Below, piece after piece: positions 8,700-29,982 of a DNA stretch of 64,000 nt; position 1 is the first letter of the stretch; the number at the start of each line of letters is the position of its first letter. Under the pieces are notes generated by a model. That model worked only from the letters and a program-made list of their open reading frames with translations. It ran no database searches and was not told the DNA's origin. The stretch covers positions 126,286 to 190,285 of the forward strand of contig NZ_FNQT01000002.1 in NCBI RefSeq assembly GCF_900107665.1. The letters are read 5' to 3'. The translations under genes were made by a program, and so were the position numbers. Source of the DNA: Haloplanus vescus (GTDB lineage Archaea > Halobacteriota > Halobacteria > Halobacteriales > Haloferacaceae).

Positions 8700-10156
8700 C
8701 TGCCGTTTCCGGACTCTGACGCGCTCTCGACACCCATCGCGTCGAACAGTTTCTTCCGCACCGCTTCCTCGGCCAGCGAGAGGAGCGTATCGCGGTTGTC
8801 CTCGCTCGCCTCGATGCCCGTGAAGAGACCGAGCGGAATCTCGACGCTCCCCTGCGTCGAGTGCCCACCCGTCTCCCCGATACCGCCGTAGGCGTCTTCG
8901 AGGACGTTCCCGATATTGATGCGGATGTCCTTCGAACGCGCCGCGAGGTAGATGGTGTCGTCGGCGATGCCGAACACGGCGGTGGTCGTGATGCCCTCTA
9001 GGTTGAGGAGGTGTTGGGCGGCCTGGGCGAGGGCGTCCCGGTCACGGATGAAGCCCGCGTTCGAGACGAGGTGACTCCCCTGCACCTGCCGGTTCTGGAT
9101 GGCCTCGGCGAGGACGTCGAGCGTCTCCGGCGACATCGACGGCGACTCCACCTGCTCCAGCGTGTCGTGGTTGGCGAAGGGGTAGAGATACGCCGCGGCC
9201 GTCAGGTCCGCGGGCGTCGTGTCGCGCTTGAAATCCAGTGTCTCGGCGCGAATGCCGTACAGGAGCGCCGTCGCGACGGCTTCGTCCGGCGAGAGGTTGA
9301 ACTCCTGGATGTACTTCGTGAGAATCGTCGACGTCGAGGAGACGTTGGGGCGGACGTCCATGAAGTCGGCGTCGTAGTCCGACTCCGGTTCGTAGTGGTC
9401 GATGAAGACGTCGACGCCGGTTTCGAGGCCGATGTCCCCCGACTTCATGTGGTCGACGAGGGCGACGAGTCCGTAGTCGTCGAGCGACGCCACCTCCGTC
9501 AGCGGTAGGAGTTCGATGCCGAGAAGGTTCACGAACGCGCGGTTCTCCTGATGGCCGATATCGCCGTGATAGAGGATGTCCGCGTCGACGTCGTGGGCCT
9601 CGGCGATGGCCTGTAGCGCCACCGCGCTGGCGATGGAGTCGGGGTCCGGGTTGTCGTGTGTGAGGATGGCGAGTCCGCCCTCGCCGCCGGTGCGGAGTAG
9701 GTCGGCGAGTTGCTGGGCCTTGTATTCGAGTTCGCCCGTCTCCAGGGCTCGAAGCGCCGACTCCGCGATGACCTGCGACGGGTTGATGACGACGTCCGCG
9801 CCCGCTTCGGTGAGTTCGTCCTCCGAGACGGGGTCGGACGCACGTACGATGATGAACTGGTCGCCGCCACGCTCTCGAATCGTCGATACCGCCGCCTTGT
9901 TCGCCTCCACGTCGGACGCGAGGATGAGAAGCACCTCGCGGTCGGCGACCAGGTCCGCCACCTCGTCGTCGCGGATGTCGGTCTGGCGCGCGTTGAGGTC
10001 CTGATCGCGCAGCGCCTCGACCCGGCTCTCGTCTCGGTCGAGGATGAGCACGTTCTTGCCCTCGTCCGCGAGCTCCTCGGCGACAGCGTGCCCGACGCTC
10101 CCGCACCCGAGAATCGCGTACGACGACATTGTCGAGACCGTAGCCGCCTTACTCAT
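8696..10156 (-). CDS. NAD-binding (TrkA-N/RCK)-DHH-DHHA1 phosphoesterase fusion
   Basis: 486 residues. A Rossmann domain with GCGSVG (residues 17-22) and an acidic ILDRDE strand end is typical of TrkA-N/RCK domains (about 12-130). A DHH phosphoesterase core starts at residue about 150 with HDNPDPDSIAS (from residue 167), VDHMKSGD (near 236) and IDHYEPE (near 255), followed by a DHHA1 substrate-binding domain. The signature DHH appears as DHM and DHY. DHH enzymes cleave small nucleotides such as pAp, nano-RNA or c-di-AMP; a ligand-gated link between NAD(H) or a nucleotide and phosphoesterase activity is plausible but unproven. The start at 10156 has a TATA-like box 29 bp upstream. Confidence 0.85.
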   Translation of the reverse strand: MSKAATVSTMSSYAILGCGSVGHAVAEELADEGKNVLILDRDESRVEALRDQDLNARQTDIRDDEVADLVADREVLLILASDVEANKAAVSTIRERGGDQFIIVRASDPVSEDELTEAGADVVINPSQVIAESALRALETGELEYKAQQLADLLRTGGEGGLAILTHDNPDPDSIASAVALQAIAEAHDVDADILYHGDIGHQENRAFVNLLGIELLPLTEVASLDDYGLVALVDHMKSGDIGLETGVDVFIDHYEPESDYDADFMDVRPNVSSTSTILTKYIQEFNLSPDEAVATALLYGIRAETLDFKRDTTPADLTAAAYLYPFANHDTLEQVESPSMSPETLDVLAEAIQNRQVQGSHLVSNAGFIRDRDALAQAAQHLLNLEGITTTAVFGIADDTIYLAARSKDIRINIGNVLEDAYGGIGETGGHSTQGSVEIPLGLFTGIEASEDNRDTLLSLAEEAVRKKLFDAMGVESASESGNGS

Positions 10157-10180
10157 ATGTCCTGAATATTCCTGCCGTCA

Positions 10181-10190
10181 CACTTAACGG
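10181..10190 (-). promoter_or_regulatory. TATA-like box of the DHH fusion gene
   Basis: CCGTTAAGTG on the minus strand is centred about 29 bp upstream of the ATG at 10156, indicating a leaderless transcript and choosing this start over the internal ATG at 10129. Confidence 0.5.
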
Positions 10191-10226
10191 CGTCCCTTCG
10201 ACCCCTCCGCCCCGAAGGGAAACGCC
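10189..10226. promoter_or_regulatory. Interrupted palindrome between two divergent promoters
   Basis: GGCGT-CCCTTC (10189-10199) pairs with GAAGGG-aa-ACGCC (10214-10226), followed by TTTT. It lies exactly between the promoter of the DHH fusion gene and the TATA element of tRNA-Lys, overlapping the edges of both. It could be a regulator site, a cruciform, or an insulating terminator. Confidence 0.45.
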
Positions 10227-10235
10227 TTTTAGTAG
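10226..10235 (+). promoter_or_regulatory. TATA-like box of tRNA-Lys
   Basis: CTTTTAGTAG is centred 26-27 bp upstream of the first tRNA base, the archaeal TATA-to-start spacing. Confidence 0.5.
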
Positions 10236-10256
10236 CCCTCCGGTAGCGAAAGGCGA

Positions 10257-10330
10257 GGGCCGGTAGCTCAGTCAGGTAGAGCGACGGACTCTTAATCCGT
10301 CGGTCGGGGGTTCAACTCCCTCCCGGCCCG
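10257..10330 (+). tRNA. tRNA-Lys (anticodon CTT)
   Basis: A 74-nt cloverleaf: acceptor GGGCCGG with CCGGCCC, D-stem GCTC/GAGC, anticodon stem ACGGA/TCCGT with loop CTCTTAA (anticodon CTT), T-stem GGGGG/CCCTC (one G-U pair) with loop TTCAACT, discriminator G. No intron and no encoded CCA. The last 22 bases recur exactly 113 bp downstream. Confidence 0.97.
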
Positions 10331-10334
10331 TAAG

Positions 10335-10361
10335 AAATCCGCGAGCGACAGCGAGCGGTTT
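10335..10361 (+). repeat. Hairpin 1 directly after tRNA-Lys
   Basis: AAAtCCGC pairs with GCGGTTT (one bulged T) around a GAGCG-rich loop, starting 5 nt after the tRNA. A stronger hairpin occupies the same place after the initiator tRNA-Met. Confidence 0.5.
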
Positions 10362-10373
10362 CGAACGACCCGT

Positions 10374-10443
10374 GGTGGGCGTTGAACGAGAGAACGCCGA
10401 GTGGTAACGAGGCGTTCGCGTGGTTCAACTCCCTCCCGGCCCG
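10374..10443 (+). repeat. Hairpin 2 carrying an exact copy of the tRNA-Lys 3' end
   Basis: The 22 bp at 10422-10443 are identical to the last 22 bases of tRNA-Lys (10309-10330), ending at the discriminator base. An inverted partner at 10374-10387 (containing GTTGAAC) matches the copy at 12 of 14 positions (10423-10436). A second nested stem AACGCC/GGCGTT (10393-10398 and 10411-10416) lies inside. Direct duplication of a tRNA 3' end is what tyrosine-recombinase integration leaves (attL/attR), but only about 90 bp separate the copies and no integrase is present. Confidence 0.75.
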
Positions 10444-10536
10444 CTTCTGCGAGGAACGACGGTGACGAGCGGAGCGACGACTCCTTCGACCCAAAACCCA
10501 CGACGCTGATATGGGATACCCTCGTTAGCGACATAC

Positions 10537-11319
10537 ATGGACCGCGGACACCTGACGACTGGACTCGTGTTGCTACTCGTCGTCTTGGCGGGCTGTTCCG
10601 GCCCCGGCGGGAACGGTGGCGAGACGGCCACGGCGGCACCCACCGCGACGCCGGCGTCGACACCCGCCTCGACACCGACCGCCACGCAGTCGGCCGAGTC
10701 GTACCCCGACGGGTGGTCGGCGTCGGGCGTCGAGGACGCGCAGGCGGCCCGCGACTCGCATTATCGGGCGGTGCTCGCGGGTCCGTCGACGACCGTTGAG
10801 TACCAGTCGCGGGTCCTCGAATCGGCGAACGACACGGGCCACGACACCACGCTGGAGATGGCACTCGACACGCAGAACCGGCGGCTCTACGCCGACATCG
10901 AGGGCGCCGACGCCCATCGACAGGTGTTTTTCGCCGACGGTCGGCTCTCGCGGTGGGATGTCGCCAACGAGACGGTCGTCTCCGAGTCTGAGACGCAGTT
11001 CCACCTCGTCGCGCAGTCGGTCGACCGAGGCGTCCTCGTCTCGCATCTCCTGCTCTACGAACTCGAAGAGAACGGGACGGTTCGTCGAAGCGGCGTCACG
11101 GCCCGTCGCTACGAGGTGACCGGCGTCCATCGGAACACGCTCTCGAACGCTTACGGGTCGGCCACGGCCGCCGACGGCCACCTCGTCGTCGGACCGAGCG
11201 GCCGACTCATCGAACTCGAGACGACGGTGACGTTCTCCCGGGCGCGGGTCCGCTACCACTACCAGCACTCGAACTTCGGCCAGACGACGGTGCAGACCCC
11301 CGACTGGCGGGCGGCGTAA
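10537..11319 (+). CDS. Haloarchaeal lipoprotein of unknown function
   Basis: 260 residues with a signal peptide (TTGLVLLLVVLAGC) whose lipobox LAGC puts the modified cysteine at residue 20. A low-complexity Ala/Thr/Pro linker (about 30-55) of the kind used to span the cell surface follows, then a mostly beta domain (60-255) with DTTLEMALDTQNRRLYADIEG and RRSGVTARRYEVTGVHR, similar in layout to LppX/LolA-like outer-surface lipoproteins seen widely in haloarchaea. Function unknown. It is convergent with the next gene, with only 3 bp between stops. Confidence 0.8.
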   Translation: MDRGHLTTGLVLLLVVLAGCSGPGGNGGETATAAPTATPASTPASTPTATQSAESYPDGWSASGVEDAQAARDSHYRAVLAGPSTTVEYQSRVLESANDTGHDTTLEMALDTQNRRLYADIEGADAHRQVFFADGRLSRWDVANETVVSESETQFHLVAQSVDRGVLVSHLLLYELEENGTVRRSGVTARRYEVTGVHRNTLSNAYGSATAADGHLVVGPSGRLIELETTVTFSRARVRYHYQHSNFGQTTVQTPDWRAA

Positions 11320-29771: not shown

Positions 29772-29846
29772 AGCGGGATGGGATAGCCAGGAGATTCCGC
29801 CGGGCTCATAACCCGGAGATCGGTAGTTCAAATCTACCTCCCGCTA
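29772..29846 (+). tRNA. Initiator tRNA-Met (anticodon CAT)
   Basis: A 75-nt cloverleaf: acceptor AGCGGGA/TCCCGCT (A1-U72), anticodon loop CTCATAA in a stem with three G-C pairs (CGGG/CCCG), T-arm GGTAG-TTCAAAT-CTACC, discriminator A. The A1-U72 pair and G-C run identify the archaeal initiator. No intron and no CCA. The last 21 bases recur exactly 136 bp downstream. Confidence 0.97.
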
Positions 29847-29847
29847 T

Positions 29848-29904
29848 TTTCGAGCGGACATCGTGAACGAGGAGCGGAGCGACGAGTGAACCGTCCGCTC
29901 GAAA
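29848..29904 (+). repeat. Hairpin 1 directly after initiator tRNA-Met
   Basis: TTTCGAGCGGAC (29848-29859) and GTCCGCTCGAAA (29893-29904) are perfect 12-bp arms, starting 2 nt after the tRNA. It has the same position as the weaker hairpin after tRNA-Lys. Confidence 0.7.
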
Positions 29905-29911
29905 CGGCCCA

Positions 29912-29982
29912 GTAGATTTGAAGCAGGGAGTGACGTGAGCGAAGCGAGCGGAACGACCGTGGTTCAAATCTACCTCCCGCTA
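29912..29982 (+). repeat. Hairpin 2 carrying an exact copy of the initiator tRNA 3' end
   Basis: The 21 bp at 29962-29982 equal the last 21 bases of the tRNA (29826-29846), ending at the discriminator. Inverted partner GTAGATTTGAA (29912-29922) pairs perfectly over 11 bp with TTCAAATCTAC (29963-29973). The loop contains the GAGCGAAGCGAGCGG-type motif. Same architecture as the tRNA-Lys locus. Confidence 0.8.

Follow-up and report, generated by a model that had tools for sequence, protein, structure and literature searches.

The 3′ ends of tRNA genes are classic hotspots of integration. Short units in arrays are known from integrons, in which short cassettes are bounded by a repeated site (attC) that forms an imperfect hairpin with a variable tip. 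The anatomy closest to that reported here belongs to the E. coli tyrT/tyrV repeats (RtT RNA, rttR; Rfam RF00391), which lie in tandem behind a tRNA and each end in a tRNA 3′ end. In the predicted fold of the K-12 repeats, nested hairpins are enclosed by pairing of the tRNA-Tyr end copy, AATCCTTCCCCCACC, with an inverted arm that lies upstream, GGGGAAGG(G/A)T, and RtT-like DNA was found in 4695 of 5426 E. coli genomes, at 1–14 places in each. At the tyrTV locus of E. coli SK1144 (L444), two tRNA-Tyr genes are followed directly by a desaturase-family gene, and the RtT feature is unannotated there, unlike in K-12. RtT is known as an RNA (PMC4986893) and is not known as a mobile element.

Two further kinds of mobile DNA bear comparison. 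Archaeal islands that target tRNA genes by means of a tyrosine recombinase duplicate the tRNA 3′ end at the insertion site, as the units described below do, but they are kilobases long and carry an integrase gene (PMC8371274). The SMRs, PATEs and MITEs of Haloquadratum are likewise short, non-coding mobile repeats of haloarchaea that lack a transposase of their own, although the excerpted account describes neither a tRNA 3′-end target nor a 22-nt duplication for them (PMC3119063).

The locus studied here lies in the window, by which we mean the whole 64,000-nt stretch of Haloplanus vescus DNA that was analysed. It shares with the RtT repeats both a repeat of the tRNA end downstream of the tRNA and the use of that copy as the 3′ arm of a hairpin. 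RtT itself is bacterial, with a period of 178 bp and a copy that starts within the T-loop and includes CCA, whereas the haloarchaeal units are shorter, belong to another sequence family and are found behind many tRNAs throughout the class. The Rfam RtT model had no match in positions 9900–10900 of the window (E ≤ 1) or in five loci (gathering score), and a known Rfam RNA was rejected as an explanation of the unit, with no match in the six stretches scanned.

The unit behind tRNA-Lys(CTT)

The window contains two unit-bearing tRNAs, with the following features.

10257–10330, + strand: tRNA-Lys(CTT), with nt 52–73 at 10309–10330 (ARAGORN; Rfam RF00005)
10331–10443, + strand: complete unit, consisting of the body (10331–10421) and then the 22-nt copy
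10334–10362, + strand: 5′ (trailer) hairpin module, type A of the tRNA-Lys set (from the fold; also in L014, L004 and L005)
10366–10387, + strand: left arm, an imperfect inverted copy of the tRNA-Lys 3′ end (from fold and sequence)
10388–10421, + strand: central hairpin module, type a (from the fold; type also in L002, L014 and the tRNA-Met locus L053)
10422–10443, + strand: exact direct copy of tRNA-Lys nt 52–73 (from sequence)
10444–10483, + strand: onset of a second 5′ module, resembling a unit start (type C of relatives, cf. L025), truncated, with neither arm nor copy after it
29772–29846, + strand: tRNA with a CAT anticodon (tRNA-Met), the second unit-bearing tRNA
29847–29982, + strand: second complete unit, with its copy at 29961–29982, identical at nt 53–73 and different at nt 52

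The 22 nt GGTTCAACTCCCTCCCGGCCCG occur at both 10309–10330 and 10422–10443, identical at 22 of 22 positions, at an offset of 113 bp and with 91 bp between the copies, as the initial annotation had described. Given its length, an exact match this close by is far above chance expectation, and a chance repeat is ruled out by this identity within 113 bp together with its recurrence in relatives. The unit follows the order found in its family: a trailer hairpin, an inverted and imperfect copy of the tRNA's own 3′ end, a central hairpin and the direct 22-nt copy. Positions 10331–10443 are predicted to fold into two hairpins, one adjoining the tRNA (10334–10362) and the other with arms at 10366–10387 and 10423–10443, inside which a further hairpin (10389–10421) is nested. 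Both the complementary segment noticed earlier at 10374–10387, which matches at 12 of 14 positions, and the nested stem (GAACGCC/GGCGTTC) were found again. In the predicted fold, however, the left arm pairs over its full length with the copy, with scattered mismatches, and in this model it mirrors the whole tRNA-Lys 3′ end, beyond the 14 nt first noted. The RNA fold of the unit has a z-score of −4.7, with 0 of 200 shuffles equally stable; as DNA, the z-scores are about −3.4 for the top strand and about −3.1 for the bottom strand. The earlier suggestion that the structure mimics a tRNA 3′ end stands as far as its anatomy is concerned, in the form of a long hairpin with covarying stems, but mimicry of the T-arm is doubtful, since pairing with the inverted arm would keep the T-loop copy from folding as a T-arm.

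The initial annotation had also proposed a deletion remnant of an integrative element, while noting that no integrase exists. The latter is true of the 91 bp between the two tRNA-Lys end copies, which contain no gene and hence no integrase gene, but not of the genome, which has six PF00589 matches. Integrase islands that use a tRNA as attachment site, whose deletion might leave such scars, are indeed present in this genome: one of 8.3 kb at tRNA-Phe (L352, G000:C3:298700-318699) and one of 9.8 kb at tRNA-Thr(CGT) (L353, G000:C1:652400-672399), each with a PF00589 match in or near it. Yet their end repeats, at 26–29 nt, are longer than that of the unit, start further 5′ (by eye, near nt 49 and near nt 44) and have no inverted arm, and the structure of the units, which stand behind many tRNAs, is uniform throughout the class. 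We find no support for the remnant proposal at this locus and give the view of the units as scars of ordinary islands hardly any credence.

Units behind other tRNAs and in other genomes

A comparison of tRNA-Lys(CTT) loci in relatives, which had been proposed beforehand, bore out the presence of the copy: at least one, with at most two mismatches, was found in 11 of 11 readable congeneric loci, a figure that includes the window's own locus and leaves out a twelfth genome in which the contig ends at the tRNA. By BLAST of 12 congeneric genomes, related arrangements were found in most of them, behind tRNA-Lys(CTT) and behind a second tRNA-Lys (TTT), the gene of which bears an intron in several; each locus has one to three extra copies. 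These congeneric units are mosaics, in which a few 5′ modules, the arm and a few central hairpins are combined differently in different species. A unit at Lys-CTT in one congener and one at Lys-TTT in another have 88 of 91 nt in common. In two of the tRNA-Lys(CTT) arrays (L008 of G003 and L004 of G004), intervals of about 1.0 and 1.3–1.4 kb between two tRNA-Lys 3′-end copies contain two short ORFs each. These ORFs resemble what we take to be a toxin–antitoxin pair of the DUF433/DUF5615 type.

In the genome of the window itself, a scan of all tRNA genes found 12 units with an arm of at least 7/9 behind 11 of the 42 genes, and no copy upstream or on the opposite strand at any of the 42 within the DNA searched. 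Units begin directly after nt 73 of the tRNA, have bodies mostly of about 70–125 bp and end in a second copy of nt 52–73 of that same tRNA. With units present in congeners and behind other tRNAs of the same genome, a unique, one-off remnant is rejected. A second unit type copies the acceptor end only (about nt 62–73 or 64–73) and was seen in this genome at tRNA-Arg-CCG (L037), Ala-GGC (L035) and Arg-GCG (L067), as well as at tRNA-Pro in two other genomes, G012 and G018. The sequence CCCCACGCTCGCTGACG is found in the bodies of the acceptor-end-only units at both Arg tRNAs (L037 and L067).

For the analysis of unit borders, a collection of 160 units was reduced to 138 by removing gaps of >190 or <55 nt, duplicates, L076 and all loci from L194 upward, and then to 129 by dropping nine with an arm below 7/9; seven of the nine are second complete tRNA genes, and two, L004 and L009 idx 1, are genuine tRNA-Lys units. 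Among the 129, in which copies with up to four mismatches were accepted, copy and tRNA differ in at most 7 units at any position from nt 52 to 68 (6 at nt 52 itself) and in 18 at nt 73. The left border is sharp, with nt 51 matching in only 20% of 104. Past nt 73, the similarity is weak (61% at +1 and ~40–46% at +2 to +5, against 13–24% in a control at the same positions), which we take as common T-rich starts. Adding 64 of 74 further units gave a set of 193, two of which are from loci titled Woesearchaeota (L083, L120). In this larger set, the outer arm is a better fit to its own tRNA than to tRNAs that end differently (mean 5.69 vs 4.73, p 8e-20, a value that overstates certainty, the 193 units not being phylogenetically independent), whereas a control region further upstream of the arm gave 4.24 for the own tRNA and 4.31 for others. 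A host-specific arm, inverted and direct copies of one sequence and tandem identical units might all be left by template switching and slippage at tRNA ends, a neutral process that would produce neither an element nor a function. We consider this very improbable: bodies and internal-loop motifs are common to unrelated tRNA loci and genera, unlike the outcome of random copying.

The stems of the units have compensatory changes and fixed internal-loop motifs, with 98% of cells paired among 65 family-b and 13 family-c sequences. Of the two strands, the tRNA-sense one has the more stable fold in 172 of 193 units, probably in large part because tandem G-A mismatches sit on the sense strand. The compensatory changes, the conserved internal loops, the strong predicted fold and this strand preference with its tandem purine mismatches all speak for our main rival explanation, that of an RtT-like functional RNA, in which the unit would be co-transcribed with the tRNA, freed by tRNA processing and retained for a putative RNA role, while arrays would change by unequal recombination. 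The E. coli RtT repeats, which have the same anatomy, are annotated as an sRNA, and their RNA is reported to be freed from tRNA operons, that of tyrT included (PMC4986893). Such a role fits less well with the absence of units behind most tRNAs of the window's genome, with tetraloops that are often GNYA and not GNRA (by eye) or, as described below, with turnover between sister species, decay of distal copies and bodies common to different tRNAs. An RtT-like RNA is thus a serious possibility but on the unlikely side; it is compatible with an insertion process, and both may hold.

Within the class, a T-loop palindrome pattern (inverted arm, 15–45 nt, direct copy) is present in 213 of 292 genomes and in 65 of 77 genera; the reversed control pattern was found in none. 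When the pattern was widened slightly, it matched 50 of 53 sampled genomes from the class versus 1 of 241 elsewhere in the phylum, again with none for the reversed control. These class figures are lower bounds, as the pattern catches one kind of T-loop and exact arms only. The single genome among the 241, G436, is from another class and has two matches, on one strand. The matches listed come from Halorubrum, Natrinema, Haloferax, Haloarcula, Natrialba, Halobacterium and other genera, and among them the match follows a same-strand tRNA in 53 of 56 haloarchaeal loci, the other three abutting the end of the available DNA. For the 24 non-haloarchaeal loci among the matches listed, a tRNA precedes the match in two, both from Woesearchaeota. 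In these two MAG contigs (L083, L120), a similar palindrome lies 37–42 nt behind tRNA-Ser, which could reflect either contamination or a genuine spread to DPANN archaea. Plasmids and phages were rejected as carriers, nothing that resembles the window's unit having been found in the ‘plasmids’ and ‘phages’ collections. Matches on viral contigs (80 of at least 120 examined) are mostly phage tRNA-Ser with a long variable arm; one among these 80, L197, looks like a provirus edge with a host tRNA-Glu. No description of haloarchaeal tRNA-end units was found in the literature searched, which covers few subscription journals, so an earlier description is possible.

Turnover between sister species and a proposed insertion process

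Two sister species, G012 and G018, were compared at all tRNAs. Orthologs were paired by anticodon and upstream identity; upstream regions are mostly about 90–100% identical, with some rows as low as 0.23, and the row for Ser-CGA probably reflects an artefact of ARAGORN. Copy number (at most three mismatches) differs in 20 of 43 tRNA rows, in what is one species pair, in which insertion and loss are indistinguishable. The Glu-CTC locus is filled by a 102-bp unit in one of the two and empty in the other, and the flanking sequences meet with nucleotide precision at nt 73 (G012 103-1394 aligned to G018 1-1293, 91%). The three units at tRNA-Pro run P1-P2-P3 in one species but P3-P1-P2 in its sister; P2 and P3 have only nt 64–73 in common, and there must therefore be more than one unit type. 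A class-wide family of tRNA-end units with fast turnover is well supported. An apparent island of ~55 kb was also seen in G018 (G018:C1:1166485-1221320; L372, L350), between tRNA-Arg(TCG) and its unit array. This island contains a cas1 gene and, at its far end, an integrase, and seems to have pushed the array away from the tRNA.

Unit bodies are shared between tRNAs. Eight full-length body pairs, 80–93% identical, stand behind tRNAs with different ends, and in 16 of 16 members of these pairs the right copy is closer to the host tRNA than to the partner tRNA. By eye, the two members of the Lys-TTT/Arg-CCG pair of G018 hardly differ in their 5′ module and central hairpin, but each has an arm specific to its host. 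Within arrays of at least two copies, mismatches are more numerous in the distal copy in 17 of 28 and in the proximal copy in 2, with 9 ties; one array was counted twice, so the first figure is properly 16 of 27. Two of the three copies downstream of tRNA-Arg-TCT in G018 match the functional tRNA end of the sister species exactly and not the present end of the tRNA they follow, and a chimeric copy in the Leu-TAA array of G018 has the acceptor end of Leu-TAG. Distal decay and the Arg-TCT copies fit a picture of old tRNA ends that were displaced and decay away from the tRNA. The Arg-TCT copies also fit ordinary mutation of the tRNA after duplication, nt 50, outside the copied block, having changed too.

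Our best single reading of these data, which we would back about as readily as doubt, is that the units are tiny non-coding elements inserted at tRNA 3′ ends by a dedicated, putative process that duplicates nt 52–73. The body would insert at the tRNA 3′ end with a duplication resembling that of a target site, and insertion would be repeated, each time next to the tRNA, leaving the functional tRNA end intact and the displaced copies to decay. The inverted arm may be rewritten on the template of the neighbouring copy (quasi-palindrome correction), or selection may maintain it as a guide able to pair with the T-loop of the target, and a putative recombinase would be supplied in trans. We favour insertion because units recur behind many tRNAs, always downstream and in one orientation, and are widespread in the class and nearly confined to it; because the left border of the copy is sharp; because their bodies are common to different tRNAs while the flanking 22 nt are the host's own; because their number and order differ between sister species, with an exact empty and filled site; and because the copies nearest the tRNA are best preserved and the arm fits its own tRNA. 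The chimeric Leu-TAA/Leu-TAG copy is better suited to a crossover in the T-loop, or to later recombination of the array, than to simple target-site duplication, and part of the shuffling could be the work of unequal crossing-over and gene conversion between arrays. Terminal inverted repeats were not seen by eye in the units inspected.

That same chimeric copy, along with the sister species' tRNA end in the Arg-TCT copies of G018, would also suit integron-like cassettes, moved by conservative site-specific recombination in the T-loop; the cassette would bring nt 54–73, and the displaced old tRNA end would be the copy. Reordering at tRNA-Pro, the gene-bearing intervals of about 1.0–1.4 kb in two tRNA-Lys arrays and a hairpin site with a variable tip that adjoins a GTT site point the same way. 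However, the acceptor ends that flank cross-tRNA bodies are those of the host and not of the donor in 16 of 16 cases, and the gene-bearing intervals have no inverted arm before the copy (by eye), which makes cassettes of this sort improbable. Unlike integron cassettes, the units are nearly all gene-less and have the host tRNA end on both sides.

Among four families tested for the enzyme that insertion would need, the tyrosine recombinases (PF00589) alone occur in each of the three genomes checked (G000, which is that of the window, G012 and G018). Their occurrence in all three unit-bearing genomes lends weak support to them as a source of mobility. The other three families fared worse. Mobility based on reverse transcriptase is unsupported, with PF00078 in 0 of 3 genomes and control matches in 3 of 14. 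So is mobility through Cas1, as in CRISPR arrays or casposons, PF01867 being present in G000 and G018 but absent in G012, where arrays changed recently, and through a Y1 transposase (PATE or IS200/IS605-derived), PF01797 being present in G012 and G018 but absent in G000.

Implications for tRNA 3′ ends

A wider proposal, which we put forward tentatively and with somewhat more doubt than belief, is that the units are an unrecognised, haloarchaea-wide group of gene-less mobile elements of ~100 bp. They would insert only at tRNA 3′ ends, duplicate nt 52–73 and build tRNA-proximal arrays that record older tRNA ends, each with an arm that complements the T-loop of its target and is brought into line with the host tRNA by rewriting or by selection; RtT repeats of bacteria would then form a second branch. 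With a tRNA-end copy paired to an inverted arm in both, the long-standing puzzle of the E. coli tyrT/RtT repeats becomes testable. If the units are RNAs, they would form a class-wide family of tRNA trailer RNAs, unmatched by Rfam across six scanned stretches. Should the arm guide insertion through pairing with the T-loop, this would be a retargetable insertion system. A gene-less element of ~100 bp that stands behind about one quarter of the tRNA genes in the window's genome and recurs throughout an archaeal class would be a new player at tRNA 3′ ends.
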